Positions 35,964 through 62,600 of a stretch of DNA of 64,000 nt are shown here, in pieces; within the stretch, counting starts at the first letter, position 1; the number at the start of each line of letters is the position of its first letter. Position numbers and translations under genes: made by a program. Origin of the DNA: Mesonia phycicola (GTDB lineage Bacteria; Bacteroidota; Bacteroidia; Flavobacteriales; Flavobacteriaceae); assembly GCF_900141885.1 (NCBI RefSeq), contig NZ_FQYY01000009.1:62001-126000 (forward strand). The letters are read 5' to 3'. A model generated the notes under the pieces. That model was not told the DNA's origin, did no database searches, and saw only the letters and a program-made list of their open reading frames with translations.

Positions 35964-35972
35964 ATAATTTTT

Positions 35973-38351: not shown

Positions 38352-38393
38352 CAATTTTTTTATAAACTAATATTAGTTTGTTTTGTTATAATT

Positions 38394-38667: not shown

Positions 38668-38690
38668 ATTATAATATGTTGTTGATATAA

Positions 38691-41647: not shown

Positions 41648-41662
41648 TTATAAATCTCACTT

Positions 41663-42421: not shown

Positions 42422-42428
42422 ACTTATA

Positions 42429-44538: not shown

Positions 44539-44542
44539 ATCT

Positions 44543-45625
44543 ATGCTTGTTTACCTAATTTTATTTGTAGGTTTTGTTTTTTTTTATTTTCAAAATAATC
44601 AAAGCCCATCTATTGGTATTTATCTTTTTTTTGGTTTTGCAATATTAATAGCAGGCTTTAGAGATATGATTGGTGGCTTTGATGTGTACATCTATTCTGA
44701 TGTTTTTGAGCATGACCTAGATCAGTTTGCTCAGTTGCAAATATTTGACCCTGGATTTATGGCATATTTTGCCTTGATTAAACAAGTAGATGATACAAGA
44801 GAATGGATGTTATTAATCTCCTCTATTATTGTTTTAGGAACTCATTTTTATAGTATAAAAAAACTGAGCCCTTTATTTTACGTCTCTTTATTTATCTATT
44901 TTGCTAAATTTTATTTGATGTCTTTTGTATATATAAGGCAAGGGATGGCAATGGTGTTGGTTTGGTTAGCCTTTACTTTTATCAAAAAAGAAAAAAAAAT
45001 ATGGATATGGGTTTTAGCAATTGCAGCAGTTTTTATGCATAAAACCGCAATTGTGGTGCTTCCTTTTTTATTGGTTAGAAATAGAGCGTTCTCTCTTTTT
45101 CAAGTTTTTAGTATTAGTATTATTGCAGGTATAGTGAGTTTATCACCTATAGGAGACTTCCTGTTAGGGAGTGCTATTGAAAATATAGATGATAAAAAGC
45201 TAGAGGTTTATGCTGATAAAAGTGGAGGGGTGAATATTTTTTATTTAATAGAAGGTTTTTTAGTTATTTTTCTAGTGTTGACTTATCGAACCAAAATGTA
45301 TGTAGATGAAAATAAGAGATGGATTTTAAATGGATTGTTATTTTATGGGTTGATTATATTGCTAAGTTTGACCAATGCTACTTTTATCCGTTTTGCTTGG
45401 TACTATTTTATTTTTGTAGTAATTGGCTTACCTTATTTAATATTAGAAACACTTTCTTTAGAAAAAATGAAACTATTTAAAACCGTTGTTTTTTTATATT
45501 ATACGGCAATTTTTTTTCGATTAATGTTAGTGTACGATGGAGGAGACTTTATGCCGTATAAAAGTATTTTTCAAGATTTTAATAGGGATGGACAGTGGGA
45601 ACATATGGAATATCGTTATGAATAA
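44543..45625 (+). CDS. EpsG-family membrane protein, probable polysaccharide polymerase (Wzy role)
   Basis: A 360-residue protein with about ten hydrophobic helices and the EpsG signature FRDMIGGFDVYIY near 41-53 and SFVYIRQGMAMVLVWLAF near 127-144. In clusters with Wzx and a Wza/Wzc pair this family fills the Wzy polymerase position. It overlaps the next GT2 gene by 8 bp. Confidence 0.82.
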   Translation: MLVYLILFVGFVFFYFQNNQSPSIGIYLFFGFAILIAGFRDMIGGFDVYIYSDVFEHDLDQFAQLQIFDPGFMAYFALIKQVDDTREWMLLISSIIVLGTHFYSIKKLSPLFYVSLFIYFAKFYLMSFVYIRQGMAMVLVWLAFTFIKKEKKIWIWVLAIAAVFMHKTAIVVLPFLLVRNRAFSLFQVFSISIIAGIVSLSPIGDFLLGSAIENIDDKKLEVYADKSGGVNIFYLIEGFLVIFLVLTYRTKMYVDENKRWILNGLLFYGLIILLSLTNATFIRFAWYYFIFVVIGLPYLILETLSLEKMKLFKTVVFLYYTAIFFRLMLVYDGGDFMPYKSIFQDFNRDGQWEHMEYRYE

Positions 45626-46502
45626 AATACTTACTATTTTTACACCAACTTATAATAGAGCGTCTCTTTTAAAAAGAGTGTTTACTAGTTTGCAAAAACA
45701 AACCTACAAAAATTTTGAGTGGATTATTGTAGATGATGGTAGTACTGATAATACAGAAGAAGTCGTAAAATCATTTATCGAGTATACCCAAGATTTCTCA
45801 ATTAATTATTTTAAACAAAAAAACGGAGGAAAACATCGAGCCATTAATTTTGGAGTGAAAAAGGCAAAAGGAGATTTTTTTCTCATTTTAGATTCGGATG
45901 ATTATCTAAAAGAAGAAGCTATAGAAGTTTTAAATCCGTTACTTGATCAGAGTAGGTTGAATGCTAATTTAGCAGGTGTTGCGGTAAGAAGAGCTTATAG
46001 TGATGGTAATATTGTAGGCAATATCTTTGATAAATCTATTCTAGCAAATTCAGTATCCATACGCTATCAACACAAAATAATCGGTGATTTAGTAGAAATT
46101 TTTAAAACAGAGATTTTAAAAAAATATAAATTTCCAGAAATAGAAAATGAAAAATTTTGCCCTGAAGCTTTAGTTTGGAATAGAATAGCACAGTACTATA
46201 ATTTACAATTTTATAATTTAGGTTTGTATATCACAGAGTATTTACCGGGAGGATTAACGCAAAAGATCATTAAAATAAGAATGCAGTCTCCAATTGCTAG
46301 TATGTTGCATTATGTAGAATTAGTTTCTTATAAAATACCAATAAAAGAAAAGGTGAAAGCTACTATTAATTTTTGGAGGTTTTCGTTTAATGATTCCTCT
46401 AGTTCTATTCTAGATAATCTAAAAAAATTACCAAATCTTTTTTATGGAGCATTTCTTCCTTTAGGTCTTTTGATGTATTTTAATGATAAACGTTCTCAAT
46501 AA
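45618..46502 (+). CDS. GT2 family glycosyltransferase
   Basis: The start is taken as the ATG at 45618 inside an ATGAATAA overlap with the polymerase gene. It yields MNKILTIFTPTYNRASLLKR, the normal GT2 opening, and 294 residues; a longer frame from 45537 would add 27 residues overlapping the neighbour. Motifs are VDDGSTDNTEE near 38-48 and LILDSDDYL near 90-98. It ends in TAATG with the next gene, a 1-bp overlap. Donor unknown. Confidence 0.85.
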   Translation: MNKILTIFTPTYNRASLLKRVFTSLQKQTYKNFEWIIVDDGSTDNTEEVVKSFIEYTQDFSINYFKQKNGGKHRAINFGVKKAKGDFFLILDSDDYLKEEAIEVLNPLLDQSRLNANLAGVAVRRAYSDGNIVGNIFDKSILANSVSIRYQHKIIGDLVEIFKTEILKKYKFPEIENEKFCPEALVWNRIAQYYNLQFYNLGLYITEYLPGGLTQKIIKIRMQSPIASMLHYVELVSYKIPIKEKVKATINFWRFSFNDSSSSILDNLKKLPNLFYGAFLPLGLLMYFNDKRSQ

Positions 46503-47584
46503 TGAAAGTGTTACAAATTATAGACAGCTTGGGTACAGGAGGAGCAGAGAAATTGATTTTAGATAGCGTGCCTTTGTATATTGAGCAGGGAATTACCACG
46601 GATGTTTTGGTTTTAAGAGATGAAAATTATCCATTTATGCAGCAATTAGAAGAACTAAATATCTGTAAAGTTTATAAATTAGGGAGAGGTTCTGTCTACC
46701 ACCCTATTCATATATTAAAGATTGCTGAAATTTTACCGAAATATGACATTGCTCACGTGCATTTATTTCCGGCACAATATTGGGCAGTGTTAGCTAAAAA
46801 ACTTAGTAAGGCAAAAACCAAGTTAATATTTACAGAACATAATACTTCTAATAAAAGAATAAATAATAAATTTTTAGCAGTAATAGATCGTTACTTCTAT
46901 TCAAAATATGATAAAATAGTATCTATTTCTAAAGAGATTGATGAAATAATTAAAAGGCATACAAAACTTAAAATGAGTCAAGTTGTTTTCAAAGTTATTG
47001 AAAATGGAGTAGATTTAAATAATATTTACGAAGCTGAAGAATTACAAGAGTTGAAGCAAGTAAATCAGAATATAATTTTACAAGTATCAGCATTTCGACC
47101 TCAAAAAGATCAAAAAACATTAATTAATTCTTTCACTTATTTACCAGAAAATACCATTTTGCTTTTGGCTGGAGATGGACCTTTAAAATCAGGTTTAGAA
47201 ATTTTCACAAAAGAGTTAGGGCTATCCGAACGAATATTATTTCTAGGAAACCGTTCCGATATCCCCCAACTACTAAAAACAGCAGATGTAATAGTGCTTT
47301 CTTCTCACTATGAAGGGATGTCTCTGTCTAGCATAGAAGGGATGGCTTCCGGTAGACCATTTATAGCCTCAGATGTACCAGGATTATCAGAAATTGTGAG
47401 TGACGCTGGATTATTATTTCCTCAAGGTAACGCTAAATTGTTAGCAGAACATATCCAAAAGCTGTTAGGTAATAAAGTTTTGTATGATGAAGTGGTAGAA
47501 AAATGCCAAGAACGAGCAGAAGAATATGATATTTCTATTATGGTAAAAAAATATATACAGTTGTATGAAGAAGTTCTTGCCTAA
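46502..47584 (+). CDS. GT4 family glycosyltransferase
   Basis: A 360-residue GT-B enzyme. The N-terminal acceptor loop IDSLGTGGAEKLI (8-20) and the C-terminal donor site EGMSLSSIEGMASGRP near 265-280, with the E-x7-E motif, define retaining GT4 enzymes. It overlaps its neighbours by 1 bp upstream and 20 bp downstream. Position suggests transfer of an inner sugar of the repeat unit. Confidence 0.87.
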   Translation: MKVLQIIDSLGTGGAEKLILDSVPLYIEQGITTDVLVLRDENYPFMQQLEELNICKVYKLGRGSVYHPIHILKIAEILPKYDIAHVHLFPAQYWAVLAKKLSKAKTKLIFTEHNTSNKRINNKFLAVIDRYFYSKYDKIVSISKEIDEIIKRHTKLKMSQVVFKVIENGVDLNNIYEAEELQELKQVNQNIILQVSAFRPQKDQKTLINSFTYLPENTILLLAGDGPLKSGLEIFTKELGLSERILFLGNRSDIPQLLKTADVIVLSSHYEGMSLSSIEGMASGRPFIASDVPGLSEIVSDAGLLFPQGNAKLLAEHIQKLLGNKVLYDEVVEKCQERAEEYDISIMVKKYIQLYEEVLA

Positions 47585-48731
47585 AGTAATTCGTGTTTCA
47601 ACGGTGCCAATTTCTTTAGATAAATTGTTGGAAGGCCAATTAAATTTTTTGTCAAAACATTATCAAGTAATAGGGGTTTCTTCTGCAAATGGAGATCATT
47701 TAAAAAAAGTGGGAGTTAGAGAATCTGTACAAGTTGTTCCTGTAGAGATGCAAAGAGGAATTCATCTTTTGCAAGACTTACAATCTCTGTACAAGCTCGT
47801 AGTTTTATTTAAAAAAGAAAAACCAACCTTAGTACACAGCATAACACCTAAAGCAGGATTATTAAGTATGCTAGCAGCTAAAATCGCTAGAGTACCTAAT
47901 AGATTACATACATTTACAGGTCTAATCTTTCCTAGTAAAACAGGTTTTTTTCAATTTGTCCTAATTCAAATGGATCGTTTACTGTGCAAAGTTGCTACAA
48001 ATGTTTACCCAGAAGGAGTAGGAGTTAAAAACGATTTAATAAAATACAAAATTACAGATAAACCTCTAAAAATTTTAGCCAACGGAAATGTAAATGGTAT
48101 CGACACTTCTTATTTTGAACCAAAACTTTTTCGACAAGAAGAAATACAAACATTACGAGAAGATTTAGTTATTAGTTCTACTGATTTTGTATTTGTATTT
48201 GTAGGAAGGCTGGTAGGGGATAAAGGTATAAATGAACTTGTTGCTGCATTTAAAAATTTAAGCGAACAAGAGGATGATAGAGAAATAAAACTTTTATTAG
48301 TTGGCCCTTTAGAACAAGAATTAGATCCGTTACTACCCATAACTTTACAAGAAATTAAGCAGAATGCTAATATCGTGTCCGTAGGATATCAAGAAGACGT
48401 AAGACCGTATTTTGCAATTAGTCAAGCTTTAGTTTTTCCAAGTTATCGAGAAGGTTTTCCTAATGTAGTGATGCAGGCAGGAGCAATGGAGTTACCAAGT
48501 ATAGTAACCGATATTAATGGTTGTAATGAAATTATAAACCATCAAGTAAATGGTTTAATCATCCCCGTAAAAAACATTGAACTTTTAGAGAAAGCAATGA
48601 ATCGATTATTAGAAGAACAACAGTTATACAGGCAACTACAATTGCATTCTAGGAAAATGATTGCAGATCGTTATGAAAGAGCACGTGTATGGAAAGCTTT
48701 GTTAGATGAATATAACTTGTTGTTGTCATAA
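47565..48731 (+). CDS. GT4 family glycosyltransferase
   Basis: A 388-residue GT-B enzyme opening KVIRVSTVPISLDKLLEGQL, common in Bacteroidota capsule clusters just before the PglC-like transferase. The donor motif reads EGFPNVVMQAGAMELP near 304-319, so the second Glu of E-x7-E is Gln. Such enzymes usually add the second sugar to the lipid-linked first one, as PglA does, and the position just before the initiating transferase fits. It overlaps the previous gene by 20 bp. Confidence 0.85.
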   Translation: MKKFLPKVIRVSTVPISLDKLLEGQLNFLSKHYQVIGVSSANGDHLKKVGVRESVQVVPVEMQRGIHLLQDLQSLYKLVVLFKKEKPTLVHSITPKAGLLSMLAAKIARVPNRLHTFTGLIFPSKTGFFQFVLIQMDRLLCKVATNVYPEGVGVKNDLIKYKITDKPLKILANGNVNGIDTSYFEPKLFRQEEIQTLREDLVISSTDFVFVFVGRLVGDKGINELVAAFKNLSEQEDDREIKLLLVGPLEQELDPLLPITLQEIKQNANIVSVGYQEDVRPYFAISQALVFPSYREGFPNVVMQAGAMELPSIVTDINGCNEIINHQVNGLIIPVKNIELLEKAMNRLLEEQQLYRQLQLHSRKMIADRYERARVWKALLDEYNLLLS

Positions 48732-48784
48732 ACTAACGATTTTTTTTATTATAAAATAGTGCTTTCTGAAAAAGCTTAATTCAC

Positions 48785-48792
48785 TACTTTTG
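48785..48792 (+). promoter_or_regulatory. -7 element directly before the PglC-like gene
   Basis: TACTTTTG matches TAnnTTTG exactly and ends four bases before the ATG at 48797. There is no TTG at -33. An internal promoter with an almost leaderless transcript is possible. Confidence 0.3.
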
Positions 48793-48796
48793 CACT

Positions 48797-49402
48797 ATGT
48801 ATAAAAACTTTTTTAAAAGAATTTTTGATTTTTTATTTGCATTGTCTCTTCTGTGCTTTTTAAGTCCGGTTTTTTTTATTGTATTTGTTGGGTTATTTAT
48901 AGCTAATCAGGGCAAACCTTTGTTTTTTCAATTAAGACCAGGCAAGGAGGAAAAGATATTTAAAATCGTTAAATTTAAAACGATGACTGATAAAAAAGAT
49001 GGTGAAGGTAACTTGTTGCCAGACGTAAAACGTCTAACTAAAATAGGGAAGTTTGTAAGAAAAACATCTTTAGATGAAATTCCACAATTAATCAATGTTT
49101 TAAAAGGAGATATGAGTTTAATTGGACCAAGACCATTACTTCCTGAGTATTTACCTTTATATAGCGAAGAACAAAAAAAAAGGCATTTAGTAAGGCCAGG
49201 TATTACAGGTTGGGCACAAGTAAATGGTAGAAATGCAATTTCTTGGAAGGATAAATTTAAACTCGATGTTTGGTACGTAGAGAATCAAAGTTTTATGCTA
49301 GATATTAAGATTTTATTTTTAACAATAAAAAAAGTTTTTGTTTCTGAAGGAATCAGTGCAGTAGGTCAGGCAACTACAGAACCCTTTAAAGGCAATTTAT
49401 GA
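48797..49402 (+). CDS. Initiating sugar-phosphate transferase, PglC-like
   Basis: A 201-residue monotopic phosphoglycosyl transferase: one re-entrant hydrophobic helix (about 9-33), basic KFKTMTD near 55-61, catalytic Asp-Glu in TSLDEIPQ near 92-99, and [16 protein letters not shown] near 111-126. The small size, with no extra N-terminal helices, matches PglC. It places a sugar phosphate on undecaprenyl phosphate to start the repeat unit. It overlaps the acetyltransferase gene by 4 bp (ATGA), as in pglC-pglD pairs, pointing to a di-N-acetylbacillosamine-like first sugar. Confidence 0.9.
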
Positions 49403-50007
49403 GCAGATTAAATATATACGGCGCTAGTGGTCATGCCAAAGTCATCACAGAAAGTTTTTTGTCTTCTTACCCTAATGGTATAGTTAATTTTTGGGATGAT
49501 GATGTAAATAAAAAAACTTGTTTGAATTATTCAATTAATCATAATACTTCTAATTTAGATATTATACAAAGTGAATTTGTCATAGGTGTTGGGGATAATA
49601 AAATAAGAAAAAAAGTTGCAGTTAAAATTAGTGATAAGGTGGTTTTTTCTAAAGCTGTTATCCATAAGTCTTCAATAGTTTCTGTATCTGCCAATATAGG
49701 TGTAGGGACGGTTTTTTTTGCAAACAGTGTGGTTAATGCAAATGCAATAATAGGTAAACATAGTATTGTTAATAGTGCAGCAGTGGTAGAACACGATTGT
49801 ATATTAGGTGATTTTGTACACATTTCTCCTGGTGCTTTATTAGCGGGTAATGTTACTATAGATGAAGGTACTCAAATAGGAATAGGAGCTAAAGTTATTC
49901 AGGGAATTAATATTGGTAAATGGTGTAAAATTGGGGCTGGTGCTGTAGTTATTCATGATGTCCCAGATGGTGCTACAGTAGTTGGAGTTCCTGCAAAAAT
50001 AATTTAA
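49399..50007 (+). CDS. NeuD/PglD-family sugar O/N-acetyltransferase
   Basis: A 202-residue enzyme: N-terminal nucleotide-sugar binding domain with [10 protein letters not shown] (4-13), then a left-handed beta-helix of hexapeptide repeats (about 90-195) with the catalytic His of VVEHDC near 132-137 and the ending VVGVPAKII. PglD acetylates UDP-4-amino-sugars. The 4-amino donor would need an aminotransferase (PglE type), which is not seen in the window. Confidence 0.88.
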
Positions 50008-50026
50008 TAACGTTTATTTATAAAAT

Positions 50027-50057
50027 AAAAAAAGGTGCTCATAGAGCACCTTTTTTT
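50027..50057. terminator. Bidirectional terminator between convergent gene sets
   Basis: AAAGGTGCTC (50031-50040) pairs perfectly with GAGCACCTTT (50044-50053) around a 3-base loop, with A and T runs on either side. It closes both the polysaccharide cluster (plus) and the T9SS cassette (minus). Confidence 0.88.
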
Positions 50058-50074
50058 GTGGAAACAAATCTTCA

Positions 50075-53000
50075 TTAAGATTTAATTAGTTTCGTTTCGT
50101 AAACTTGTTGTGAATCTGTGTCTTTCACTTTTAAGAAATATATTCCTGATCCTCCAAATGGAACAGAATTTAATTGAAGTGTTCCATTAGATTCTGGAGT
50201 AGCTTTACGGTTGTAAATTTTTTGTCCTAATACATTGTAAATTTCAACTTGAATATTACTTCCAGATTGTTCTGGTAGCAAGATGTAAACACTTTGATCT
50301 TCCACAGGGTTAGGATAAACCGAAATAGATTTAGTGTCAAAATTATTTAAATCAAGCGTAGATTTTCCAAAACTTATAGAGAATCTATCAGAAGCAATAC
50401 TTTCTGCAATAGTTTCGTCTACCTGAAAGTTTATTGTTTGTAAACCGCTAGTTAATAGAGTAGAGGTTTGCAAATAAGCATCTTCTAAATATACTTCTTT
50501 CTCAAATTCAGTAGGTATTTCTATTTGGAAAGTATAATCTGTATAACGATACTGGTTGGTAAATAACTGTAAAACTTCCCCTTCTTGCGGTAATTCTCTG
50601 TTTTCAATAGATAAATAACTCCCTTGCTCTATACGAGCTAAATTTTCATCTAAATTGAAGAATTTAGGTGCGTCTTGATTATTCACTGCATTACTAGCAC
50701 TATTAGAAAACTTAATTCTTAACCCATCTGATGAAGTCTGATTGTTAGTGAATGCATCTTGGGTAAATAATTGTAATCTAATTTCTTTTGTATCTGTAGT
50801 AGTTGCACTTCTAAATACACTTGTAGCAGCTTCTTGTACCGCTTTGTTCGCTTCTGTAAAAGCTAAGCTTGTAGTAGTACCTGCAGATCCGCTTAAGAAG
50901 AAAGCAGCTTGCATTGGTTGTAAATACTGATTTGCATTAGAGCTAGTGTTGCTATTACTACCGTCTGATAAATCTACCGTTACATAACCGCCACGTCCTC
51001 CTGGAGTACCTGTTACAGGCGTACCTCCTAAATCTGGATCATATACATAATAGAAATTTGAATCTACGTTAGTAGTATTAATGTTACTCATTACTAATTG
51101 CATATTTACAGCTGCGTGATAAGGATTTCCGAAGAAATTAGCGACACCATCTGTTGTGTTAAATCCAGTTTGAGTAACATCTCCAGTAAGTACTGAACCT
51201 GTATTTCTAATAATGGTATTGGTTGGAGCTGCAGTATTAGATGTAACGTCTATTGAGCGGTCTCCTCTAACTAGTAAACGGTAAGGGACTCCTGCTATTA
51301 AATTAGTATTATCTGTATCTGCTATGTTAACCCAAGAACTTGTACTATTATTAAAACTAAACATAGATGGGTTTCCTGATGGGGTAGCATCAAATCCATC
51401 GGTTTGATCTATGGTTGTACCTGTAATATGAGTACCGTAACCAGGAGTAGGGTCGTCGTTATATGCTGTAGCACCTTCTTGCCAATTAGCTTTAATATTT
51501 GCAGAAGTGGTTACAGAAGAGGTAATAAATCTAAATGCTCTCTTTGCAGGGAAACATTGTTCTGTGATAACATTACCTGAAATGATACCGCCAACTTCAC
51601 CAATTTGTGCTGCACCATTGGTGAAATCACAACGTAAGTATAGTTGATCTCCTGTAGACAATGTTCCGTTAGTTACGGTAAGTACATCATCAATGTATAA
51701 GTATTCATCTGTATTTAAGCCAATAGTTACACCATTTGGATTGTCAATTTCTAAATTACCTATAGACATACTATCACCTGTAAGGCTTTGGTTTAAATAA
51801 CCATTAAAAACTAATTGAGCTTGAGAAGCATCAAAACTACCTAAGTTGTAAATATCTTGTTGTATTGCTAATTCTACTCCGGTATCTACCGTTGCATCTG
51901 CTCCGCTAGCAATATGTATACATCCTACAGATGCATCTTCTGTTAAAGTTGCAGAAGGATTAAGAATTACTAATTTTCTACCTTTATCTATAGCGCTAGG
52001 TGCTCCATTAGTACCTGAACCATTGGTGTAAGTTGTACCATCCCACGTAATAGGCTGTACATCGTTGTATCTTATAGTGAAATAGTCTCCATCTGTAAAG
52101 TTAATTCCGCTGAAAGTAATTTTGTTACAACCAATAGAACCTGTTACTAATGTAGGTGAGCTAAAATTTGAAGAAGAGCTAATTATTAATTCTATAGAAG
52201 AATAAATAGAACTACTTAAACTAATTTGATCTAATAAAAGACTAAGGTCTACTGTTCCTGTTTCTCCTCCTTCATCAACACGCCATACTGTAGCCAGTTT
52301 TTGGTCGTCTGCAAGAGTAGAAGAACAATCTATATCATCAGTGTCTAGTAAATCTATTTCTTCTCTATTAGAAGCTATTAATAAATGTTCACCGGCATCT
52401 AAATTAGATGGATTAGAGATATTAATAATTCCTGTTCCTACGAAACTTTGATTTTTGATATCTGTAGTAGAATTATACAACCCTACTAAATTATGATCAA
52501 AATCTCCTTCAGTAGTAGAGTCATAAGCAAATAAATCATTAGTACTTAAGCTTAAATCATACTTTGCGGAGTAGTAGTTTTGTAAAACTCCTACTTGAGC
52601 AGAATTTAAAGAGAGATCATACATAGTAAACTCAGTAATACTTCCTTCAAAATAACTTGTATTTGCTGTAAGAGAAGATCCGTCTACTATGATGGTATTA
52701 CTTCCATTTCCTCCTATAGAAATATCTCCAGTATGTGCATATAATAAACCAATATTGTTAATTGTGCCCACTAAGGCTCCGTTTAAATAACAATCTATAG
52801 TTCCTGTAGTAGTAGAATTACCATTATACACATAGTTAAGTACGTAATCGGTGTTGGCAGAAATAGGTGTGTCTAAATCTGTGTAGTTCCATGGAGAACC
52901 TGCACCATCATTACTTTGGTTGTAGGCAGCAAAAGTTAAATTTCCATTTTTGATAAAAAATAGTAAGCTTCGTGTGTTACCACCTTCTTCATAAAGAATT

Positions 53001-54673
53001 TGTGTAGAGGTAATATCGGATCCAGAATTAAATACCATAGTAAATGTTCTATTACTATATGGCTCATCAATATTAATCTCTAAATTGTCGTCAATTTGTA
53101 AGATATCATTTGTTCCATCAAACACAACAGAAGGAAATCCGTTCATTTGATTTTCAGTATAGATTGGCTGTCTTGATGCTGAAGCTTGTTCTAATGGAAG
53201 TCCATTAGGCCCTTGGTTTGCCCAGGTGCTAACTGCAGTGTTATTACTCAAACTTAAATTACTTGCTTGATACCAGAATCTAGTATTTAGTAATGAAGTT
53301 ACACCTCCTGGGATATAATCTCCAGATTCTAATTGAGATACAGCAAAACTAATGTAGTCTCCATTGTTAATAGTGATGTTTTCAAAAGTTGCAATATTCC
53401 CAGAAATATTAGTAGCTGCAGTTTCTGTAGGACTTGTAAATGCCGCATCATTACTTACTAGTAGAATTACTTCTTCTGAAGTAAATGTAGTTCCAAAATC
53501 ATCTAAAGATAAGCTAAAGTCTGCAGTAGTAAAGCTTCCTGTTTTTTGAGCTCTCCAGTTACTAGTAAGTTTGTAAAGAGATTTATTTGTAGCAGTACAA
53601 CCATAAGATAATGTTTCTAATTCTGAATTATCAAATGTATCTGTAGCTATAGCTAATAAATCATTATCTGCTAGTGCATCATTCTCTGTGATTGTTACCA
53701 TACCTGTTCCTATGGAAGTAGCTAGGTGATTGTCTGAAGAAGTTTCTCTTTGAATTGCAACATAGTGATAGTCAAAATTTTCAGTTGCATTATCATAGGT
53801 GTACACATCTTTAGAGCCAATACTAATATCGTATTTTGATGATAAATAGTTCTCCAAACTATTAAGTTCTGAAGTGTTTAATACTTTATTATAGAAAATA
53901 AATTCAGCTAAACCTCCTTGAAAAAAGTGGTTGGAGTTGTTATTTCCACCATCGTGATAATAACCATCGTTTACTTGTGCTCCTAAATTTGCTGGATTAT
54001 GATTGTAAACTCTACCAATACCTGTTAATGTTCCAAATAAAACACCATTTAGGTAAGTATCTATGGTACCTGTCATTGACGTGTTACCGTTAAAAGTAAA
54101 AGTAATAATATACTCGGTATTAGCGGTGATAGATGTGTTAGCAGAGGTAAACCCCCATGGAGCATCTGCACCATCATTATTTAGGTTTAAAGCACCAATA
54201 TAAAGAAGGCCATTGTCTATATATACATTAAAACCACGTGTAGACCCTCCTTCATTATAAATGTTTTGTCTCGTTGTAACATCTGCCCCTGTTCTTATTA
54301 CAAAAGAATATGTTCTTTGAGCCCAAGGTCCACCGGTATCAAGATCAGTATTGTCTGCTATAGATAAATAATCGTTACTACCATCAAATTCTAAAATAGG
54401 AAATCCGTTTAATTGATTGGTAGAAAAAGTAGGTCTACGTGAAGCAGTACCTTGAGTAGCATTATTACTATTACCTCCATAATTAAATACAGTATTTACA
54501 GTTGCGCCGTTATTTGTAGTTGCAGATAATGAATTAGCAATAAACCAAAAACGGTTATCTGTATCTGAGCCCACACCACCTGGCCCGCTTTGCGCATTTG
54601 TAATAAACGGTAAGTGAAAAATTACAATTGCTATACTGGTGAAAATATAATTTAAGTATTTATTTTTCATCAT
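50075..54673 (-). CDS. Giant T9SS cargo protein with two LamG-like modules
   Basis: A 1532-residue secreted protein, signal peptide 1-28 (ending NA-Q). Residues about 29-449 and 450-865 are two copies of one module: a LamG/concanavalin-like domain (opening NRFWFIANSLS and TRFWYQASNLS, with NGFPILEFDGSNDYL and NGFPSVVFDGTNDIL), then a second region with SKYDISIGS and AKYDLSLST. A segment with CIHIASGADATVDTG follows, then a module from about 1005 (CDFTNGAAQIGEV) shared with the protein encoded at 54953-58117. The C-terminus (about 1448-1532) is a type A T9SS sorting domain with SVYPNPVED. It is probably anchored or released at the cell surface; the ligand is unknown. Confidence 0.85.
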   Translation of the reverse strand: MMKNKYLNYIFTSIAIVIFHLPFITNAQSGPGGVGSDTDNRFWFIANSLSATTNNGATVNTVFNYGGNSNNATQGTASRRPTFSTNQLNGFPILEFDGSNDYLSIADNTDLDTGGPWAQRTYSFVIRTGADVTTRQNIYNEGGSTRGFNVYIDNGLLYIGALNLNNDGADAPWGFTSANTSITANTEYIITFTFNGNTSMTGTIDTYLNGVLFGTLTGIGRVYNHNPANLGAQVNDGYYHDGGNNNSNHFFQGGLAEFIFYNKVLNTSELNSLENYLSSKYDISIGSKDVYTYDNATENFDYHYVAIQRETSSDNHLATSIGTGMVTITENDALADNDLLAIATDTFDNSELETLSYGCTATNKSLYKLTSNWRAQKTGSFTTADFSLSLDDFGTTFTSEEVILLVSNDAAFTSPTETAATNISGNIATFENITINNGDYISFAVSQLESGDYIPGGVTSLLNTRFWYQASNLSLSNNTAVSTWANQGPNGLPLEQASASRQPIYTENQMNGFPSVVFDGTNDILQIDDNLEINIDEPYSNRTFTMVFNSGSDITSTQILYEEGGNTRSLLFFIKNGNLTFAAYNQSNDGAGSPWNYTDLDTPISANTDYVLNYVYNGNSTTTGTIDCYLNGALVGTINNIGLLYAHTGDISIGGNGSNTIIVDGSSLTANTSYFEGSITEFTMYDLSLNSAQVGVLQNYYSAKYDLSLSTNDLFAYDSTTEGDFDHNLVGLYNSTTDIKNQSFVGTGIINISNPSNLDAGEHLLIASNREEIDLLDTDDIDCSSTLADDQKLATVWRVDEGGETGTVDLSLLLDQISLSSSIYSSIELIISSSSNFSSPTLVTGSIGCNKITFSGINFTDGDYFTIRYNDVQPITWDGTTYTNGSGTNGAPSAIDKGRKLVILNPSATLTEDASVGCIHIASGADATVDTGVELAIQQDIYNLGSFDASQAQLVFNGYLNQSLTGDSMSIGNLEIDNPNGVTIGLNTDEYLYIDDVLTVTNGTLSTGDQLYLRCDFTNGAAQIGEVGGIISGNVITEQCFPAKRAFRFITSSVTTSANIKANWQEGATAYNDDPTPGYGTHITGTTIDQTDGFDATPSGNPSMFSFNNSTSSWVNIADTDNTNLIAGVPYRLLVRGDRSIDVTSNTAAPTNTIIRNTGSVLTGDVTQTGFNTTDGVANFFGNPYHAAVNMQLVMSNINTTNVDSNFYYVYDPDLGGTPVTGTPGGRGGYVTVDLSDGSNSNTSSNANQYLQPMQAAFFLSGSAGTTTSLAFTEANKAVQEAATSVFRSATTTDTKEIRLQLFTQDAFTNNQTSSDGLRIKFSNSASNAVNNQDAPKFFNLDENLARIEQGSYLSIENRELPQEGEVLQLFTNQYRYTDYTFQIEIPTEFEKEVYLEDAYLQTSTLLTSGLQTINFQVDETIAESIASDRFSISFGKSTLDLNNFDTKSISVYPNPVEDQSVYILLPEQSGSNIQVEIYNVLGQKIYNRKATPESNGTLQLNSVPFGGSGIYFLKVKDTDSQQVYETKLIKS

Positions 54674-54710
54674 ATAATAATTTTAAATTAATAATGTAAC
54701 TATATATAAC

Positions 54711-54737
54711 AAAAGCTACCTTTTAACAGCAGCTTTT
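54711..54737 (-). terminator. Hairpin between the small CTERM gene and the giant T9SS gene
   Basis: AAAAGCT (54711-54717) and AGCTTTT (54731-54737) can pair around a 13-base loop, followed on the minus strand by a short T-containing run. It could act as a partial terminator that lowers expression of the downstream giant gene. Confidence 0.4.
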
Positions 54738-54749
54738 TATTATTAAATT

Positions 54750-54947
54750 TTATTTTTTTCTAGATTTTAATATTCCTAACGCTCCGCCAAAAGTTAATGC
54801 TAGCCATATTAAACCATTTATAGGAGCAGCAACGGTTTCATCATCAACATCATCTGGGAAACCTATTTGCGCATTAACTGCAGGAATTGAAGCAATTAGT
54901 ATTATCAATAAAATAATATATTTTCTTTGATTTATTTTCTTTTTCAT
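54750..54947 (-). CDS. 65-residue secreted protein with exosortase-like (PID-CTERM-type) C-terminal signal
   Basis: A signal peptide (1-26, ending VNA-Q) leaves a 39-residue product: an acidic stretch QIGFPDDVDDETVA, the motif APIN at 41-44, a hydrophobic helix at about 46-60 with a GG centre, and the basic end KSRKK. This motif-helix-basic pattern is that of C-terminal sorting signals such as PEP-CTERM, and closely recalls the small Flavobacteriia proteins named PID-CTERM, with Asn in place of Asp. Its start is 5 bp after the stop of the T9SS protein upstream, so they are cotranscribed. No sortase gene is in the window. Function unknown. Confidence 0.7.
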   Translation of the reverse strand: MKKKINQRKYIILLIILIASIPAVNAQIGFPDDVDDETVAAPINGLIWLALTFGGALGILKSRKK

Positions 54948-54952
54948 AACGC

Positions 54953-57900
54953 TTATTGTTTAACTATTTTTTGTGTAAAAATACTTCCGTTGGTAGTTTG
55001 TAAGTTAAAAAGGTAAATCCCAGTTGGTAATGTTGAAATATTAAGTTGGTTGTTAAAGTTTTCGTTAATAGTTTTATTCATTACTTTTCTTCCCATTGTG
55101 TCGTAGATGTTAATAGTACCTCCGTTAATATCTATGTCTTCAGTAGAAATGTTTAAAATTTCTTGCGTTGGATTTGGGTAAACTTGTACTTCATTTGATA
55201 CATACGTATCATCTCCTAATGTAGATTTATTAAATGTTATAATAAATCGATTAGTTTTTAAAGTCTCGCTAATAGATTCGTCTACTCTAAAGCTATAAAT
55301 AGAACCATTGCTTAATACAGTACTTTTATTAGTATAATTATCTTTTAAATAAACAGTGTAATCATCTAAACCTTGTAGTTCTGCTTTAAAAATATAATTA
55401 GTAGTTACGTAATTGTCTGTAAATAATTGAAGAGTTTCATTATCTGTAGGAATATTTCTAACTTCAATAGATACTAAGTTTCCATTTACATCTCTAGCAA
55501 TATTTTCATCTAGGTTATATAGTTTTGGAGCATCTTTGTAAGTGTATGCATTATCTCCAGTTTCTTGAAACTTTATTTTTAGACCATCAGAAGAATTGCT
55601 TGAAGAGTAATAAAGTTCTTCTTGAAAAATATTTAACTGTAAATATTTCTGTTCATTATTTGCAGTTCTAAATATATCAGTACTTTCTTGCTCTACAGTT
55701 TTAAAACTTTCTTCAAATGTAATAGAAGGAGTAGTACCAAGGTTACTTGTTAAAAAGAAAGCAGATTGCATTGGTTGTAAAAAGTTGTTTCCATCTCCAA
55801 CTGTACCTGTGTTTGTTAATATTTCTATAGTAGAATATGCACCTCTTGTACCTGAGTTAGGATCCCATATATAATAGTATAAAGGATTAATATTTGATGC
55901 TGCCGCACTATTTATCACTTGCTCCATATCTACAATGGCGTGGTATGGATTACCAAAGAAGTTAAAACTACCTTCTGTAAAATTAAAACCAGAGTTAAAA
56001 GTAACACTTCCTGTAGCTGCAGTACCTGTAGCTCTAAGTCTTGTGTCTGTAGGTGGGGTATCATTATCTGTAATATCAATAAATCTGTCTCCTCTAATTA
56101 TTAATCTATATGGTGCTCCTGCTGTTAAATTGCTAGTGGTATTAGCTGCAGCTTCCCAAGACTGTGTAGAGTTATTAAGAGTAAACATAGATGGGTTACC
56201 AGAAGGGTTATAATCAAAACCATTATACCCATCAGCGTTAGAGCCAACACCTGTAATGTGAGTCCCGTAATTATGTAAAACTGTAGCATCATCATAAGTT
56301 GCAGCGTCTTCTTGCCAGTTTGCTCTAATAGATGTAGTAGTTGTTATAGAAGAAGATACAAATCTATAAGCTCTATTTGCAGGAAAACATTGTTCTGCAG
56401 TAATATCACCAGAAATTGAACCAGTTACTTCTCCTATTTGAGCTGTGTTGCCAGTAAAGTCACAAGTAAGAGTGATATTTCCGTTGGTTGTTAATTGACC
56501 AGTAATAACTGTTAAAATCTCTGTGATTTTCATTTCAGTATTTACAACAACGCCATTATTGTTTTCAATAGTAAAATTAGCTAAATCACCATCTATAAAA
56601 CCAGAAGGGATAGTTTGTTGTGCTTGTCCAGACATATATAATTCTGAATTTGCTGCACTACCATCTATATAGCTGTTAACACCTGTGGTAATAGTTCCTT
56701 GAATAGTAAATAAATGTCCGTTTAATTCAATGGAAGTATTATCTCCTAAAATCAAATTATCTGCACCAGTATTAATATCTAAAATAGGATAATTAGTTAA
56801 TCCTGAAGGGATAGTTACATTGTAATTAGCATTTGGTACCTCAGCAATGTCCCAGTTGTTGGCATCATTCCAATCGTTATCAACACTACCATTCCACGTT
56901 GCATCACCACAACTCGTTGCATCTGCAATAGTAGCAGATATAACTTCTTTAAGACTTGAGCTATTAAATGCGATAGTGTGGTCACCACCAACTTCAAAAG
57001 ATAAATCATCAAAAACAGCTTGTCCAGAAGCATCTGTAGTTCTTGTAAGCGTACCTAATAATTGACCTGGACCAGTTTTGATATTTGCAGTGATATTAAA
57101 ACCTGCTTGAGCAACAGCATTTCCAGCATCATCTGTAACTTGAATTGTAAAGCTAGAAGGCAATGTACCATCACAGTTTGATGTAGTTGGTTGAGAAACT
57201 ATGTTAAAGTTACTAGCAACAGGTATGGATGGTTCGTTATATGCTATAAATGCAGGATCTGTACTACCACTTGGAGTGTAAATTAATGCTACAGCATCTG
57301 TAATGTTAGAAGCTGTTATTCCAAACTCAGATAATTCTATTGAAGCAAACTTGATTGTTTTATTATTGTTTACTTGTCCAGGACTACCGTTAAAATTAAA
57401 TAAATCAGTCTGCCAAGTTCCTAAGGTTGGAGCTGCAGAAAGAGTTACATCTACTCGGTTACCTACAGTATTACCTCCACTATCTACAAATCTTAATTCG
57501 TCTTTAGTAGTACTAACTTGAGCAATTTGTGAAACTAAAATATCAGGAATACCGTCTCCAACATCTATCATGTCTAAACCGGCAGAGCTTAATTCAAATC
57601 TAATTGTACTTGTTGAAGGAATATTGGTAAAATAAGTACCTAAATCTAAGCCATTTGGTCCTGCAGTTAAATATGATGCAAGTTCTGCTCCAGTAGGGTT
57701 AGCTGTAAAAGGTAAAGAAGAGGTAGAAGTACCATTGTCAATACCATCTGTTAATTGACCAAAACCAATGTAATAAGAACCACCGCCTGTTGTAGGTAAT
57801 TCTAACACCGGCAATGCTCTAAAATTTGCAGAGGTATAAGAAACTCCTTTAGAGGTTAATTTAGTATCATTAACACCAGTAGAATAAGTAGTACCGTTAG

Positions 57901-58117
57901 CGGTAAAAGCTAATACTGCATGAGAATCTTCAGGTAAAATACTATTGTTTGCTGAAGAGGTAGATTTCCAGTAACCTAGGTAATCTGTATAGATTTCTGT
58001 AACTTGAGCTTGATTATTAAATGAAATTAATAAAAACACAAAAAGTGCTAAAAATTTCATTATTGAGTAGCTAGTGTACTTTTTTTTCATAGAAAAATAA
58101 TTTGATATTTTAGCCAT
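54953..58117 (-). CDS. T9SS cargo protein with Ig-like domain, paralogue of the giant neighbour
   Basis: Up to 1054 residues. Three in-frame ATG starts exist, at 58117, 58090 and 58060; the last gives the most compact signal peptide (MKFLALFVFLLISFNNQAQ). After an N-terminal region of about 280 residues comes a filamin/Big_1-like domain (about 300-400, with VTDDAGNAVAQAGFNI), then a segment with NWDIAEVPNANYNVTIPSG, and from about 545 the module shared with the protein encoded at 50075-54673 (CDFTGNTAQIGEV, EQCFPANRAYRF, NFFGNPYHAIVDMEQV). It ends in a type A T9SS sorting domain with VYPNPTQE. First gene of the three-gene cassette. Confidence 0.85.
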   Translation of the reverse strand: MAKISNYFSMKKKYTSYSIMKFLALFVFLLISFNNQAQVTEIYTDYLGYWKSTSSANNSILPEDSHAVLAFTANGTTYSTGVNDTKLTSKGVSYTSANFRALPVLELPTTGGGSYYIGFGQLTDGIDNGTSTSSLPFTANPTGAELASYLTAGPNGLDLGTYFTNIPSTSTIRFELSSAGLDMIDVGDGIPDILVSQIAQVSTTKDELRFVDSGGNTVGNRVDVTLSAAPTLGTWQTDLFNFNGSPGQVNNNKTIKFASIELSEFGITASNITDAVALIYTPSGSTDPAFIAYNEPSIPVASNFNIVSQPTTSNCDGTLPSSFTIQVTDDAGNAVAQAGFNITANIKTGPGQLLGTLTRTTDASGQAVFDDLSFEVGGDHTIAFNSSSLKEVISATIADATSCGDATWNGSVDNDWNDANNWDIAEVPNANYNVTIPSGLTNYPILDINTGADNLILGDNTSIELNGHLFTIQGTITTGVNSYIDGSAANSELYMSGQAQQTIPSGFIDGDLANFTIENNNGVVVNTEMKITEILTVITGQLTTNGNITLTCDFTGNTAQIGEVTGSISGDITAEQCFPANRAYRFVSSSITTTTSIRANWQEDAATYDDATVLHNYGTHITGVGSNADGYNGFDYNPSGNPSMFTLNNSTQSWEAAANTTSNLTAGAPYRLIIRGDRFIDITDNDTPPTDTRLRATGTAATGSVTFNSGFNFTEGSFNFFGNPYHAIVDMEQVINSAAASNINPLYYYIWDPNSGTRGAYSTIEILTNTGTVGDGNNFLQPMQSAFFLTSNLGTTPSITFEESFKTVEQESTDIFRTANNEQKYLQLNIFQEELYYSSSNSSDGLKIKFQETGDNAYTYKDAPKLYNLDENIARDVNGNLVSIEVRNIPTDNETLQLFTDNYVTTNYIFKAELQGLDDYTVYLKDNYTNKSTVLSNGSIYSFRVDESISETLKTNRFIITFNKSTLGDDTYVSNEVQVYPNPTQEILNISTEDIDINGGTINIYDTMGRKVMNKTINENFNNQLNISTLPTGIYLFNLQTTNGSIFTQKIVKQ

Positions 58118-58134
58118 AAAATTTTATGGAACAC

Positions 58135-58142
58135 CAAATGTA
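58135..58142 (-). promoter_or_regulatory. -7 element upstream of the T9SS cassette
   Basis: On the minus strand TACATTTG matches TAnnTTTG exactly, 17 bp before the first possible ATG. No TTG is seen at the usual -33 distance. Confidence 0.35.
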
Positions 58143-58227
58143 GTACATAGATTTCGTAATGATTTTTTTTTTCGATTAAAGGCTTTATTATGCCGATGAA
58201 TACACTTTATTAACTTTTTGTTATGGT

Positions 58228-59688
58228 TTATTGATTTGGTAAATCCCCTGGGCCTTTAGTTGGTAATTCAGATTTCCCCATTAAATATTTATCTACTTCA
58301 CGTGCAGCTTCTCTGCCTTCAGAAATTGCCCAAACAATTAACGATTGTCCTCGACGCATATCTCCTGCTGTAAAGATGTTTTTAATGTTGGTTTGGTATT
58401 TTTTATTAGACTGAATGTTAGATCTTTCTGTAGTGTTTAAACCTAGTTGTTCACTCAATGTTTTTTCAGGGCCAGTAAAACCGAGCGCTAATAAAGCTAA
58501 ATCACAGGGCCATTCTTTTTCAGAGCCTTCTATTTCTTTTAGTTGCGGTCTGTTTCCTTCGTTTTTTATCCATTTTACTTCTACTGTTTTTAAAGATTTA
58601 AGTTTTCCTTTTTCATCTTTTATAAATTCTTTAGTAAGAATGCTCCAATTTCTGTCTACGCCTTCTTCATGAGAAGAGCTTGTTTTAAGCGTAAATGGCC
58701 AATAAGGCCAAGGGTGATCTTTTGTTCTATGAGTAGTAGGCATAGGCATAATTTCAAAATTTGTAACAGATTTTGCGCCGTGTCTATTAGAAGTACCTAC
58801 ACAATCAGATCCAGTATCTCCACCGCCAATAACAATTACATGTTTGTTTTTTGCAGAAAGTTTTTCTTCTGTTTTAGCTAAGCCATCTACAACTTTATTG
58901 TTATGGCTTAAAAATTCCATAGCTTGTATTACTCCTTCTGCATTTGCGCCTTCAATAGGTAGTGGTCTTCTTTGTGTTGCTCCACCGCATAAAACTATAG
59001 CGTCAAAATTGTTTAACTCTTTAATATTGTAGTTTTTACCTACGTATGTATTTGTTTTAAAGATTACACCTTCTGCTTCCATCTGCTGAAGCCTTCTGTC
59101 TATAACGCTTTTGTCTAATTTAAAATCAGGAATCCCATAACGAAGCAAGCCTCCAATTTTTTCAGCTCTTTCAAATACGGTTACGGTATGTCCTGCTCTT
59201 CTTAACTGTTGCGCAGTTGCTAAGCCAGCAGGGCCAGAACCTATAATTGCTACAGTTTTTCCTGTTTCTATTTTAGGCTTTTTAGGGGTAATCCAACCTT
59301 CTTCAAACCCTTTTTCTACAATATATTTTTCAATTAACTCAATACTAACAGGTGGCTCGATAATGCCTAATACACAAGAAGATTCACAAGGGGCAGGGCA
59401 AAGTCTTCCTGTAAATTCAGGAAAATTATTTGTAGAGTGTAAAATTTGTAGTGCTTTGTACCATTCATTTTGATAAACAGCATCGTTAAAATCTGGAATT
59501 AAATTACCTAATGGGCAACCGCTGTGACAAAATGGAATACCACAATTCATACATCTCGCACCTTGTTCTTCAAGAGTTTGTTGACTTAATTTTTTAGAAA
59601 ACTCTTTGTAGTTTTTAATTCTTTCAGAAGGTGAAATGTTTTCTTCTGTCTTTCTTTCATGTGCTAAAAATCCTCTTAACTCTCCCAT
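58228..59688 (-). CDS. gltD: Glutamate synthase small subunit
   Basis: A 486-residue NADPH-dependent flavoprotein. Two 4Fe-4S sites in the N-terminal domain ([16 protein letters not shown] near 41-56 and [12 protein letters not shown] near 97-108), FAD site [19 protein letters not shown] near 149-167, NADPH site GGGDTGSDC near 285-293, and the second FAD motif [12 protein letters not shown] near 442-453. It passes electrons from NADPH to GltB. Its ATG overlaps the gltB stop by one base (TAATG). Confidence 0.97.
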
Positions 59689-62600
59689 TATACCGTTTTT
59701 AATTCTGCTGTTGTGTTATTTTTTTCTTCCTCAATTTTTTGTAACGCTTTTTTAAATTCTGTAGGCATTACCTTTATAAAATGATGTTTTTGTTCTTCCC
59801 AGTTTTCAATAATTTCTTTAGCAATTTTACTTTCTGTATGTTTAAAATGATTTTTAATTAAATGTTTTACTTCTTCTTGATTTTCTTCAGAAGGTTCTTC
59901 TAGTTCAATCATTTCCATGTTGAAATTATGGTGGTCTAGGTCTTGATTAGGATTGTAGAGATAGGCAACTCCACCGCTCATTCCTGCAGCAAAATTTCTT
60001 CCTATTTTTCCTAAAATTACTGCAATACCTCCAGTCATATACTCACAGCCATGATCACCAATCCCTTCTATAACCGCTTTGGCACCAGAATTTCTTACAC
60101 AAAAACGCTCACCTCCAATTCCGTTGATGTAAACTTCTCCGCTAATTGCTCCATACAAAGCAACATTACCAATTATGATATTTTCATGAGATTTAAAGGT
60201 TGCTGCTGTGGGTTTTTTTACTGTTAGAGTTGCTCCAGATAAACCTTTACCTATATAATCATTTGTGTTACCAATTACATTTAGCGTAAGGCCTCTAGTA
60301 GCAAACGCTCCAAAACTTTGCCCTGCAGAACCGGTAAAATTAATGGTAAGTGTATTTTCTGGTAAGCCTTGTGCGCCGTGAATTTTAGAAATTTCATTAC
60401 TTATAATAGCTCCCGTAGTTCTATTCATATTATTAATAGGGAAACTAAGATTCATTTTCTCTTTTCTGTAAATTGCTGGGTGCGCTTTACTTAAAATTTT
60501 AAAATCTAGCACTTTTTCTAATTGATGATCTTGGTCTTGCGTTTTATGTAGCGCCATATCTTCATCAATTTTTGGTTTGTATAAAATTTTAGATAAATCT
60601 ATGCCTTGCGCTTTATAATGTTTAACGGCTTTATTCATATCTAATTTTTGACTTTGGCCTACCATCTCATTCATAGTACGATAACCTAGACTTGCCATAA
60701 TTTGTCGAAGTTCTTGAGCTACAAAATACATGTAGTTAATTACATCTTCTGGGGTGCCTTTAAAGTTCTTTCTTAATTCTGGGTCTTGGGTAGCAATACC
60801 AACAGGGCAAGTGTTTAGATGGCAAGCTCTCATCATAATACAACCTGTGGCTACTAATGGTGCTGTAGAGAAACCAAACTCTTCTGCACCTAAAAGAGCT
60901 GCAATAGCTACATCTCTACCTGTTTTTAATTGTCCGTCACATTCAATTGTAATTCTATTTCTTAAGTTGTTAAGCAATAGCGTTTGTTGTGCTTCTGCAA
61001 TACCTAACTCCCAAGGTAGTCCTGCATGCCTTAGTGAGGTTAGGGCAGATGCACCAGTACCACCATCAAAACCAGAAATTAGAACTACGTCTGCTTTTGC
61101 TTTTGCAACTCCTGCAGCAATAGTACCAACGCCAACTTTTGAAACAAGTTTCACATTAATTCTAGCTTCTCTATTTGCATTTTTTAAATCGAAAATAAGT
61201 TGTGCTAAATCTTCAATTGAATAAATATCGTGGTGTGGAGGGGGAGATATAAGCCCAACAAATGGAGTAGAGTTTCTTGTTTTAGCAATGTCTGGATTTA
61301 CTTTTGCACCCGGTAATTGCCCACCTTCACCAGGTTTGGCTCCTTGTGCCATTTTAATTTGAATTTCTTTGGCACTACTTAAATAATTGATAGAAACTCC
61401 AAACCTACCAGATGCTACTTGTTTTATGGCGCTGTTTCTCCAATTTCCGTTTTGGTCTTTGTTAAAGCGATCTGGGTCTTCACCACCTTCACCTGAGTTA
61501 CTTTTACCGCTTAGACGATTCATGGCGATGGCTAAATTCTCATGGGCTTCTTTGCTAATAGAGCCAAAAGACATAGCGCCGGTTTTAAACCTTTTTACAA
61601 TCTCTGTCCAAGGTTCTACTTCGTCTATAGAAATAGGGTCTAAATCTTTAAATTTAAACAAACCTCTTAACGTCATTAACCGTTCGTTTTGCTCGTTAAT
61701 TAATTTAGAATATTCTTCGTAACTAGTAGGGTTATTTTGTTTTACTGCTTGTTGTAGTTTAGCTACGCTAGCCGGGTTAAACATATGGCGTTCTCCATTT
61801 CTTCTCCAGCGGTAATCTCCTCCTATATCTAAAGCTAACCCAGTTTCTACTTGTTGAGTTTTAAATGCTTTGTGGTATCTTTTTTGAATTTCTTTTTCTA
61901 TTTCATATAAACCAATACCTTCAATTCTGGTAGGCGTATTTGTAAAATATTTGTTGACAAATTTTTGATTAAGACCAAGTATTTCAAAAATTTGAGAACC
62001 TCTGTAAGAAAGTAGCGTAGAGATCCCTATTTTATTCATTATTTTAATAATTCCCTTACCAATAGCTTTATTAAAATTTTGTACCGCAACTTCTGGTTCT
62101 GTAATTTTAATATCTCTGTCTTCTACCAGTTTATAAATAATTTCATTTACTAGATAAGGGTTAATTGCACTTGCGCCGTAACCGAATAAAAGTGCAAAAT
62201 GATGTGGTTCTCGTGGTTCTGCAGATTCAATCACGATGCCAAAAGATGATCTTCTGTGATGTTTTTTTAATCGGTGATGCACAAACGAGCAGGCTAGTAA
62301 ACAAGGAATTGGCGCTAGTTTTTCTGAAACTCCTCTGTCTGAAAGAATAAGAATATTGCAACCTTCATCTACTGCGATTTTTGTTTCTGAAATAATTTCT
62401 TCTAATCTATTTTCTAATCCGTTTAATCCTTTTTCTGCTTCGTAGAGAATAGAAATACTAACGGTCTTAAAATCGGGGTGATTTATGTATTTTATTTTGT
62501 CTAAATCTTCGTTAGAAATGACAGGATTTTGGATTCTTAATTTTTTACAGTGCTTGGGAACAATATCAAATAAATTGTGATCTTCTCCTATAGAAAGGCT

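Follow-up and report, generated by a model that had tools for sequence, protein, structure and literature searches.

Surface fixation by the sortase PorU is established for type A cargo of the type IX secretion system (T9SS). Such cargo is carried by PorV and is either released or linked to surface lipopolysaccharide, according to the available text of PMC10994853. Exosortases, for their part, have been proposed to cut near a motif and to couple the C-terminus thus created to a compound yet to be identified (PMC7468200, in the portion available). In F. johnsoniae, the exosortase gene xrtF is required for normal biofilm formation and surface colonisation, and the deletion of xrtF, of its partner Fjoh_1449, or of porV, porU or sprA results in the absence of zorbs and in a strongly reduced biofilm, as the accessible part of PMC10936215 reports. 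The target proteins of XrtF are stated to be not yet known in the available text of a 2025 paper (PMC12188702). T9SS and exosortases are usually treated separately. The locus described here brings them together: it is a three-gene cassette located in a 64,000-nucleotide stretch of the Mesonia phycicola genome (contig NZ_FQYY01000009.1, positions 62,001 to 126,000; hereafter the window), which encodes two giant proteins with T9SS signals and, between them, a 65-residue protein, P0002, with a putative exosortase-type C-terminal sorting signal (CTERM).

The three open reading frames (ORFs) lie on one strand (-) at 50075-58117, where the initial annotation had placed them, in the transcription order P0003, small gene, P0001. 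Only 5 bp separate P0003 from the small gene, and 76 bp separate the latter from P0001. The genes and their main parts are as follows.

54953..58117, - strand: P0003, the 'A-type' giant, predicted T9SS cargo of 1054 aa, with a signal peptide, N-terminal domains, the shared module and a T9SS type A signal
54750..54947, - strand: P0002, the mini-CTERM protein, 65 aa
50075..54673, - strand: P0001, the 'B-type' giant, predicted T9SS cargo of 1532 aa, with two tandem LamG-containing repeats, the shared module and a T9SS type A signal
54816..54824, - strand: P-I-N motif of P0002 (residues 42-44), predicted region of recognition by the exosortase, in which P and I do not vary among 27 aligned sequences
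55208..56530, - strand: shared all-beta module of P0003, about 450 residues (about residues 530-970)
50354..51781, - strand: shared module of P0001 (about residues 965-1440)
54956..55183, - strand: T9SS type A C-terminal signal of P0003 (residues 979-1054), TIGR04183 48.9 bits
50081..50320, - strand: T9SS type A C-terminal signal of P0001 (residues 1452-1531), TIGR04183 49.5 bits

Both giants exceed, at their C-termini, the curated cut-off of the T9SS type A model TIGR04183 (23 bits), as expected from the signals initially noticed, and are classified from sequence as probable type A cargo. Their C-terminal regions are 42% identical over 612 residues (E 4e-132), with every motif listed in the initial annotation present and in the same order.

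Comparative genomics shows that this cassette is one case of a recurring unit, which consists of T9SS cargo, a mini-CTERM protein and an exosortase, and not of the module alone. Three lines of evidence carry this conclusion: the recurrent pairing of the genes, the distribution of the sorting signal, which follows that of exosortases, and the occurrence of T9SS, mini-CTERM and exosortase genes in this order in other families. The early suggestion that two surface-sorting systems meet at this locus is borne out, and extends to a recurring unit in which the small gene neighbours T9SS giants while its signal tracks exosortases.

With regard to pairing, a small CTERM gene lies at most 100 bp 3' of 51/102 module ORFs, a count that leaves out the 11 of 113 module ORFs with less than 260 bp of 3' DNA, versus 1/359 other ORFs of at least 250 aa. 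The single positive control ORF (L040) is itself T9SS cargo (49.3 bits), and none of the five weak module matches has a small CTERM ORF within the same distance. These data come from a scan of public genomes yielding 77 named loci, many of them from Mesonia, Psychroflexus and Dokdonia, to which the loci of the window's genome were added. Counted by locus, a small-family gene is found within 250 bp in 52 of 81 cases, and 60 of the 63 small-family matches adjoin a module ORF, both figures being obtained with a profile partly built from the counted genes. In the window's genome, seven module matches correspond to five loci, if the fragment at a contig end on C27 is taken to be, as seems likely, the remainder of the giant truncated on C22. 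The small CTERM gene stands beside the giant in the window, in C22 and in C34, and is missing from C26 and C19. The order A-type giant, small gene, B-type giant is found consecutively in L025, L026, L027, L032 and L033, in addition to the window; in L023, the same order is kept with an additional giant and small gene interposed. When the pairing label is placed on a quick tree (one short module row excluded), 18 changes are needed, versus a shuffled mean of 33.8. The pairing is therefore clustered, but has been gained or lost repeatedly, and a single origin was rejected.

The second line of evidence is the link to exosortases. The window's genome encodes XrtF on the same contig (contig position 169937-170449, 44 kb past the window's end), with 232.7 bits against a cut-off of 90 and with the TIGR04127 partner gene beside it. 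It is the sole PF09721 and TIGR04178 match in this genome. Among 298 genomes of the family (completeness floor of 95, XrtF called at E<=1e-20), XrtF is found in 193. The small-family profile is positive in 62 genomes and PID_CTERM in 113, all of which have XrtF. Taken together, the two profiles define 129 carriers, 129 of them with XrtF, while none of the 105 XrtF-negative genomes carries either. At least one genus presents both states, with XrtF and PID-CTERM in G125 and neither in G238. The module, in a genome scan that scored at most five candidates per genome, is present in 12 of the 298 genomes, again all XrtF-positive, and ten of these 12, including the window's, have a single exosortase. 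At the class level, an exosortase-family match is found in 123/125 PID_CTERM genomes, with G234 and G251 as exceptions, versus 176/296 genomes overall. The P0002-type sorting signal thus appears to track exosortases, in a phylogenetic profile compared without species-tree correction, which makes the mini-protein a candidate target of XrtF.

The architecture of P0002 is consistent with such a role. The protein starts with a signal peptide (judged by eye) ending in NAQ, followed by an acidic stretch of about 15 residues, IGFPDDVDDETVAA, the PIN motif, a predicted transmembrane stretch of about 17 residues and a basic tail. It was initially described as carrying a sorting signal different from that of the giants, and all the elements of the PID_CTERM architecture are present: C-terminal motif, transmembrane helix, basic tail and N-terminal signal peptide. 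Its relatives share the pattern F-x-DDVxDE-xx-APIDG-TM-K/R. Two small proteins of congeneric genomes, assigned by their position just 3' of module matches, pass the cut-off of the NCBIfam PID_CTERM model (NF046080; 26 bits), with 26.4 bits in G337 and 26.2 in G506, the latter score including neighbouring residues in frame. The small-family profile, of which P0002 is itself a part, matches in the window's genome with an E-value of 1.4e-25. Judging from its sequence, P0002 is best regarded as a divergent PID-CTERM protein, that is, PID-CTERM-like rather than a filed member of PID_CTERM. The small gene is under purifying selection and is kept as a protein, since the ratio of nonsynonymous to synonymous substitution rates (dN/dS) ranges from 0.13 to 0.34 in the six of eight comparisons with usable dS, the other two being saturated.

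The third line of evidence extends beyond the window type. Among the 94 PID genes listed, from 91 of the 125 positive genomes, at least 59 are located 37-573 bp 5' of an exosortase match on the same strand. Forty of these pairs were sampled roughly in listing order, not selected for T9SS; one small ORF that looks wrong-frame (L224) and one locus without an upstream gene (L223) were retained. A T9SS-tail gene lies directly upstream of the small gene in 16/40 pairs, versus 5/265 other genes of the same loci. These 16 genes, distributed over ten GTDB families, end at most 42 bp before the small ORF or overlap it, and 14 of them exceed the TIGR04183 cut-off (those of L216 and L226 have no NCBIfam match). 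When all same-strand genes ending within 50 bp upstream are considered in these 40 loci, 16 out of 17 have a T9SS tail. Of four adjacent exosortases compared with the exosortase X model, three exceed its cut-off. In 17/40 loci, the neighbour upstream is transcribed divergently, and four of the five such neighbours tested carry Wzz or GNVR domains, which are typical of exopolysaccharide (EPS) chain-length proteins. Within Flavobacteriaceae, L171 presents a T9SS module giant, a small gene and an exosortase consecutively, with a small protein that passes the PID_CTERM cut-off.

The module, for its part, was rejected as the key element. In the 16 upstream T9SS-type genes, it gives one clear match (211 bits), five weak ones (29-47 bits) and none in the remaining ten. 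The initial annotation had tied the small gene to this module of about 500 residues, and had named module loci without a small CTERM neighbour as what would speak against the idea. Such loci do exist (29/81 without a small gene within 250 bp), and the claim of a module-specific link falls with them and with the ten upstream genes; a link to T9SS cargo as a wider class is upheld.

Taken together, these results lead us to lean, by a small degree, towards reading the cassette as a dual-sorting surface unit, in which an exosortase-anchored peptide docks or anchors a lectin-like T9SS giant to the exopolysaccharide matrix. The giants would be exported by Sec, cross the outer membrane via T9SS and, to judge from their signal, be attached to the cell surface by PorU. 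The mini-protein would also be exported by Sec and lose its signal peptide, and its C-terminal helix would keep it in the inner membrane. XrtF would then cut it near PI[D/N]G and join the acidic peptide, of about 15 residues, to a component of the envelope or of the exopolysaccharide. Adjacent, tightly spaced genes would in this way supply the partner and the handle together, and the peptide handle, anchored by XrtF or XrtX, would retain or organise the T9SS giant at the EPS-covered surface. An anchor role for the small protein is plausible, and we infer the cut, the acceptor and the docking of the giant. The biofilm and zorb defects shared by the F. johnsoniae deletions of xrtF, its partner, porU, porV and sprA fit this peptide-handle scheme.

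Several observations weigh against the dual-sorting reading. The 29 module loci devoid of a small gene have to be counted here, and the idea that the T9SS C-terminal domain specifically predicts the small gene was rejected, as this domain performs no better than the module (83/100 vs 86/100). The co-occurrence of the combined small-family and PID_CTERM carriers with XrtF (hypergeometric 7e-36) is not corrected for the clustering of XrtF on the species tree. P0002 itself reaches only 13.6 bits with PID_CTERM (14.9 in the genome scan) and, being below the cut-off, is not filed as a member. No T9SS-tail gene is found directly upstream in 24/40 PID/exosortase pairs. In a sample of 60 PID-CTERM loci of Flavobacteriaceae, which mostly avoided genomes with the module, the neighbour is riboflavin synthase in 38 and an exosortase-like gene in 11, and just 4 come immediately behind a T9SS gene. 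Joint homogenisation of the T9SS signal and the small gene, presented below, concerns 3/7 same-locus giant pairs in which both giants have a small gene, and is not seen in L025, L027, L030 and L031. Finally, when modules of similar identity are compared, small proteins resemble each other more within a genome than across genomes (0.79 vs 0.62; Psychroflexus only, 15/51 units). This suggests a common partner, for instance the exosortase, rather than a peptide fitted to each giant.

Some of these points also speak for a rival explanation, in which the mini-protein serves exosortases as a general substrate, plays a part of its own in the envelope or in EPS, and is co-expressed with T9SS surface genes without any direct partnership. 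The other genomic homes of PID-CTERM genes agree with it, as do the EPS-type genes beside several PID/exosortase pairs, the EPS cluster beside the window cassette and the homogenisation of small proteins within a genome. With 38 of 60 loci next to riboflavin synthase and no more than 4 immediately behind a T9SS gene, PID-CTERM proteins do constitute a broader exosortase clientele with other roles as well, the T9SS-linked proteins forming one part of it. Nevertheless, T9SS tails in 16 of 17 close same-strand upstream genes are more specific than loose co-regulation predicts, and module and small-protein distances correlate (r 0.69 against a permuted maximum of 0.26), with shared ancestry contributing. 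We hold this rival to be rather unlikely. Although the distances correlate, no one-to-one co-evolution of giant and peptide is claimed, because small proteins are more alike within genomes.

The movement of the genes bears on a further rival. In L039 and L041 (Psychroflexus), which hold two small-linked giants each, the modules share 54% identity, yet over the last 85 residues identity rises to 96-99%; it amounts to 98% in the 300 bp ahead of the small genes, to 87-95% in those genes themselves and only to 48-56% in the following 100 bp. The contrast is weaker in L043 (module 66% vs C-terminal domain 86%). In these three loci, the small gene is moved or converted jointly with the T9SS signal. 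Such recombination units, the very short mature part of the mini-protein and the tight spacing behind T9SS genes speak for an inner-membrane helper (pilot or chaperone) for the T9SS export of the giant, a helper that is never sorted and that the exosortase just trims of its tail or recycles. A helper of this kind would not be expected where PID-CTERM genes occur away from T9SS genes, by riboflavin synthase or divergent from Wzc-like EPS genes, nor would it explain why the presence of PID-CTERM follows exosortases, and we regard this explanation as improbable. Finally, one could imagine that a short membrane ORF came to lie beside T9SS genes by chance, without belonging to any system, since AT-rich genomes abound in short hydrophobic ORFs, but this can hardly be upheld in view of the single positive among 359 control ORFs, the 129/129 co-occurrence with XrtF and the selection acting at the codon level.

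A wider version of the dual-sorting reading can be proposed with more reserve, and we judge it possible without expecting it to hold. In this two-track assembly of Bacteroidota, one gene unit would make a T9SS giant and a mini-protein, the mature peptide of which would be placed covalently on exopolysaccharide or a glycolipid via XrtX or XrtF, as a dedicated handle locking the giant to the matrix. If true, it would give the missing class of XrtF substrates and explain the biofilm defect common to xrtF and T9SS mutants. The gene order recurring in ten GTDB families (40-locus sample) would then join two systems hitherto kept apart. In any case, concrete and testable candidates for XrtF substrates are supplied.

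Several side observations concern PID-CTERM mini-proteins in other settings. A proline-rich one of about 65 aa lies beside riboflavin synthase, usually in convergent orientation, in the window's own genome (L001, C22:352850) and in 38/60 of the loci L128-L187. It looks like a conserved exosortase substrate of a core locus; the neighbour in L129 has the Pfam domain Lum_binding. In L153, L158, L160, L162, L163, L165, L166 and L171, all of Flavobacteriaceae, a PLDGG-type small CTERM gene overlaps or abuts an exosortase-like gene of about 200 aa, and the products of the latter in L153, L158 and L171 are XrtX-like, below the XrtX model cut-off. Outside Flavobacteriaceae (L188-L227), many PID-CTERM mini-proteins have a CWPPPC-type cysteine pair just before PIDGG, which the window type does not have.

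Regarding the giants themselves, the shared module and C-terminal domain of P0003 were modelled with AlphaFold2 as an all-beta structure (predicted local distance difference test, pLDDT, of 92.5). In a fold search, the C-terminal domain alone matched well, with the solved T9SS C-terminal domains 8glk_D, 8gl8_D and 8gl6_D, and the whole module gave no convincing match. The module has no Pfam match, and no relative was found by sequence in the PDB, either for the module (E<=1) or for P0001 (E<=0.1). A cysteine pair (CDFT...EQCF) occurs in both window giants; the corresponding positions hold other residues, mostly S and Y, in the four further module proteins of this genome included in alignment A1. 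As another side observation, L011 (own genome, C26:331000-347000) holds two module giants in tandem, which share 56% identity along their length, and has no small CTERM gene.

The N-terminal halves of the giants differ. That of P0001 consists of the following duplication.

52034..54592, - strand: tandem LamG/ConA-like repeats of P0001 (residues 28-455 and 453-880, about 430 each), 36% internal identity

The two LamG modules of the initial annotation stand as a duplication and, at the level of the fold, probably as LamG, but find no counterpart in Pfam: Laminin_G_3 matches neither the whole of P0001 nor its first repeat. The assignment relies on the match of Laminin_G_3 to 4/6 sequences of alignment A5 (relatives of the P0001 repeat) and on an AlphaFold2 model of the N-terminal part, of moderate confidence (pLDDT 72), which matches LamG/ConA-like lectin folds. 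Many LamG-like domains are among the fold matches, most of them lectin-like domains from clostridial neurotoxins, with identities of 10-14%; the fold is a widespread one, and toxicity cannot be read from it. In P0003, the 'Ig-like' region gives Glyco_hydro2_C5 (E 0.048) and DUF7382 (E 0.16), both below the Pfam cut-off, and P0003-like N-termini are found in L021, L022, L023, L025-L028, L032, L033, L039 and L041.

The cassette is flanked and interrupted by the following elements.

58135..58142, - strand: TACATTTG, promoter-like element, 17 bp ahead of the P0003 start, weak evidence
54711..54737, - strand: possible partial terminator, a hairpin with a weak T tail, 3' of the small gene
50027..50057, - strand: terminator, a strong hairpin followed by T, 3' of P0001

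P0001 may have a promoter of its own, as the hairpin with a weak T tail separates it from the small gene. The element TACATTTG resembles the Bacteroidota -7 promoter element, but constitutes weak promoter evidence, for the window holds no more matches to the pattern than shuffled sequence does (102 matches vs 112.6 expected). No RNA family reached its gathering score in 49900-59800. An exopolysaccharide cluster adjoins the cassette (window 33124-50007), its last genes being convergent with it; it comprises genes for an export protein (35205), a Wzc-like protein (35973), a flippase (40142), a sulfotransferase-family protein (41663), glycosyltransferases and EpsG (44543). Further away, polysaccharide-use genes (window 2385-13104) encode an oligoalginate-lyase-like protein, below the model cut-off, and SusC.

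The component families of this unit are known, and their union was not found described in open-licence PubMed Central (PMC) full texts, among which no paper using the term PID-CTERM was found either. Type A T9SS cargo (TIGR04183) is the closest known class for the giants, both of which exceed its cut-off and the C-terminal fold of which matches solved structures, but here one giant has an exosortase-type mini-protein gene 5 bp downstream. The PID_CTERM model (NF046080) and those of exosortases X and Y (NF046081, NF046083) have neighbouring accession numbers, which suggests that NCBI built them together. P0002 matches PID_CTERM weakly, and its relatives in G337, G506 and L171 pass; unlike in that pairing, the only exosortase found for the window is the distant XrtF, with no adjacent XrtX, and P0002 remains below the cut-off. 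Compared by name, the PID_CTERM model carries no T9SS partnership. Both genes of the XrtF/exosortase F system (TIGR04128, TIGR04127) are present in the window's genome; whereas the available text of PMC12188702 calls the targets of XrtF not yet known, PID-CTERM mini-proteins are proposed here. The PEP-CTERM/EpsH system (Haft 2006), so far as the available sources describe it, resembles the present one by its tripartite C-terminal signal (short motif, transmembrane helix, basic tail), by an exosortase in every one of the 129 carrier genomes here and by EPS-type genes near several pairs, and differs in that the motif is here P-I-D/N, the sorted peptide would be of about 15 residues (window) and the small gene often comes right after T9SS cargo. 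Finally, the GlyGly-CTERM/rhombosortase system acting on type II secretion system cargo in Vibrio cholerae, as presented in the available part of PMC7468200, likewise combines a C-terminal sorting protease with the cargo of another system; there, the tag is on the cargo itself, whereas here it is on a separate mini-protein encoded beside the cargo.

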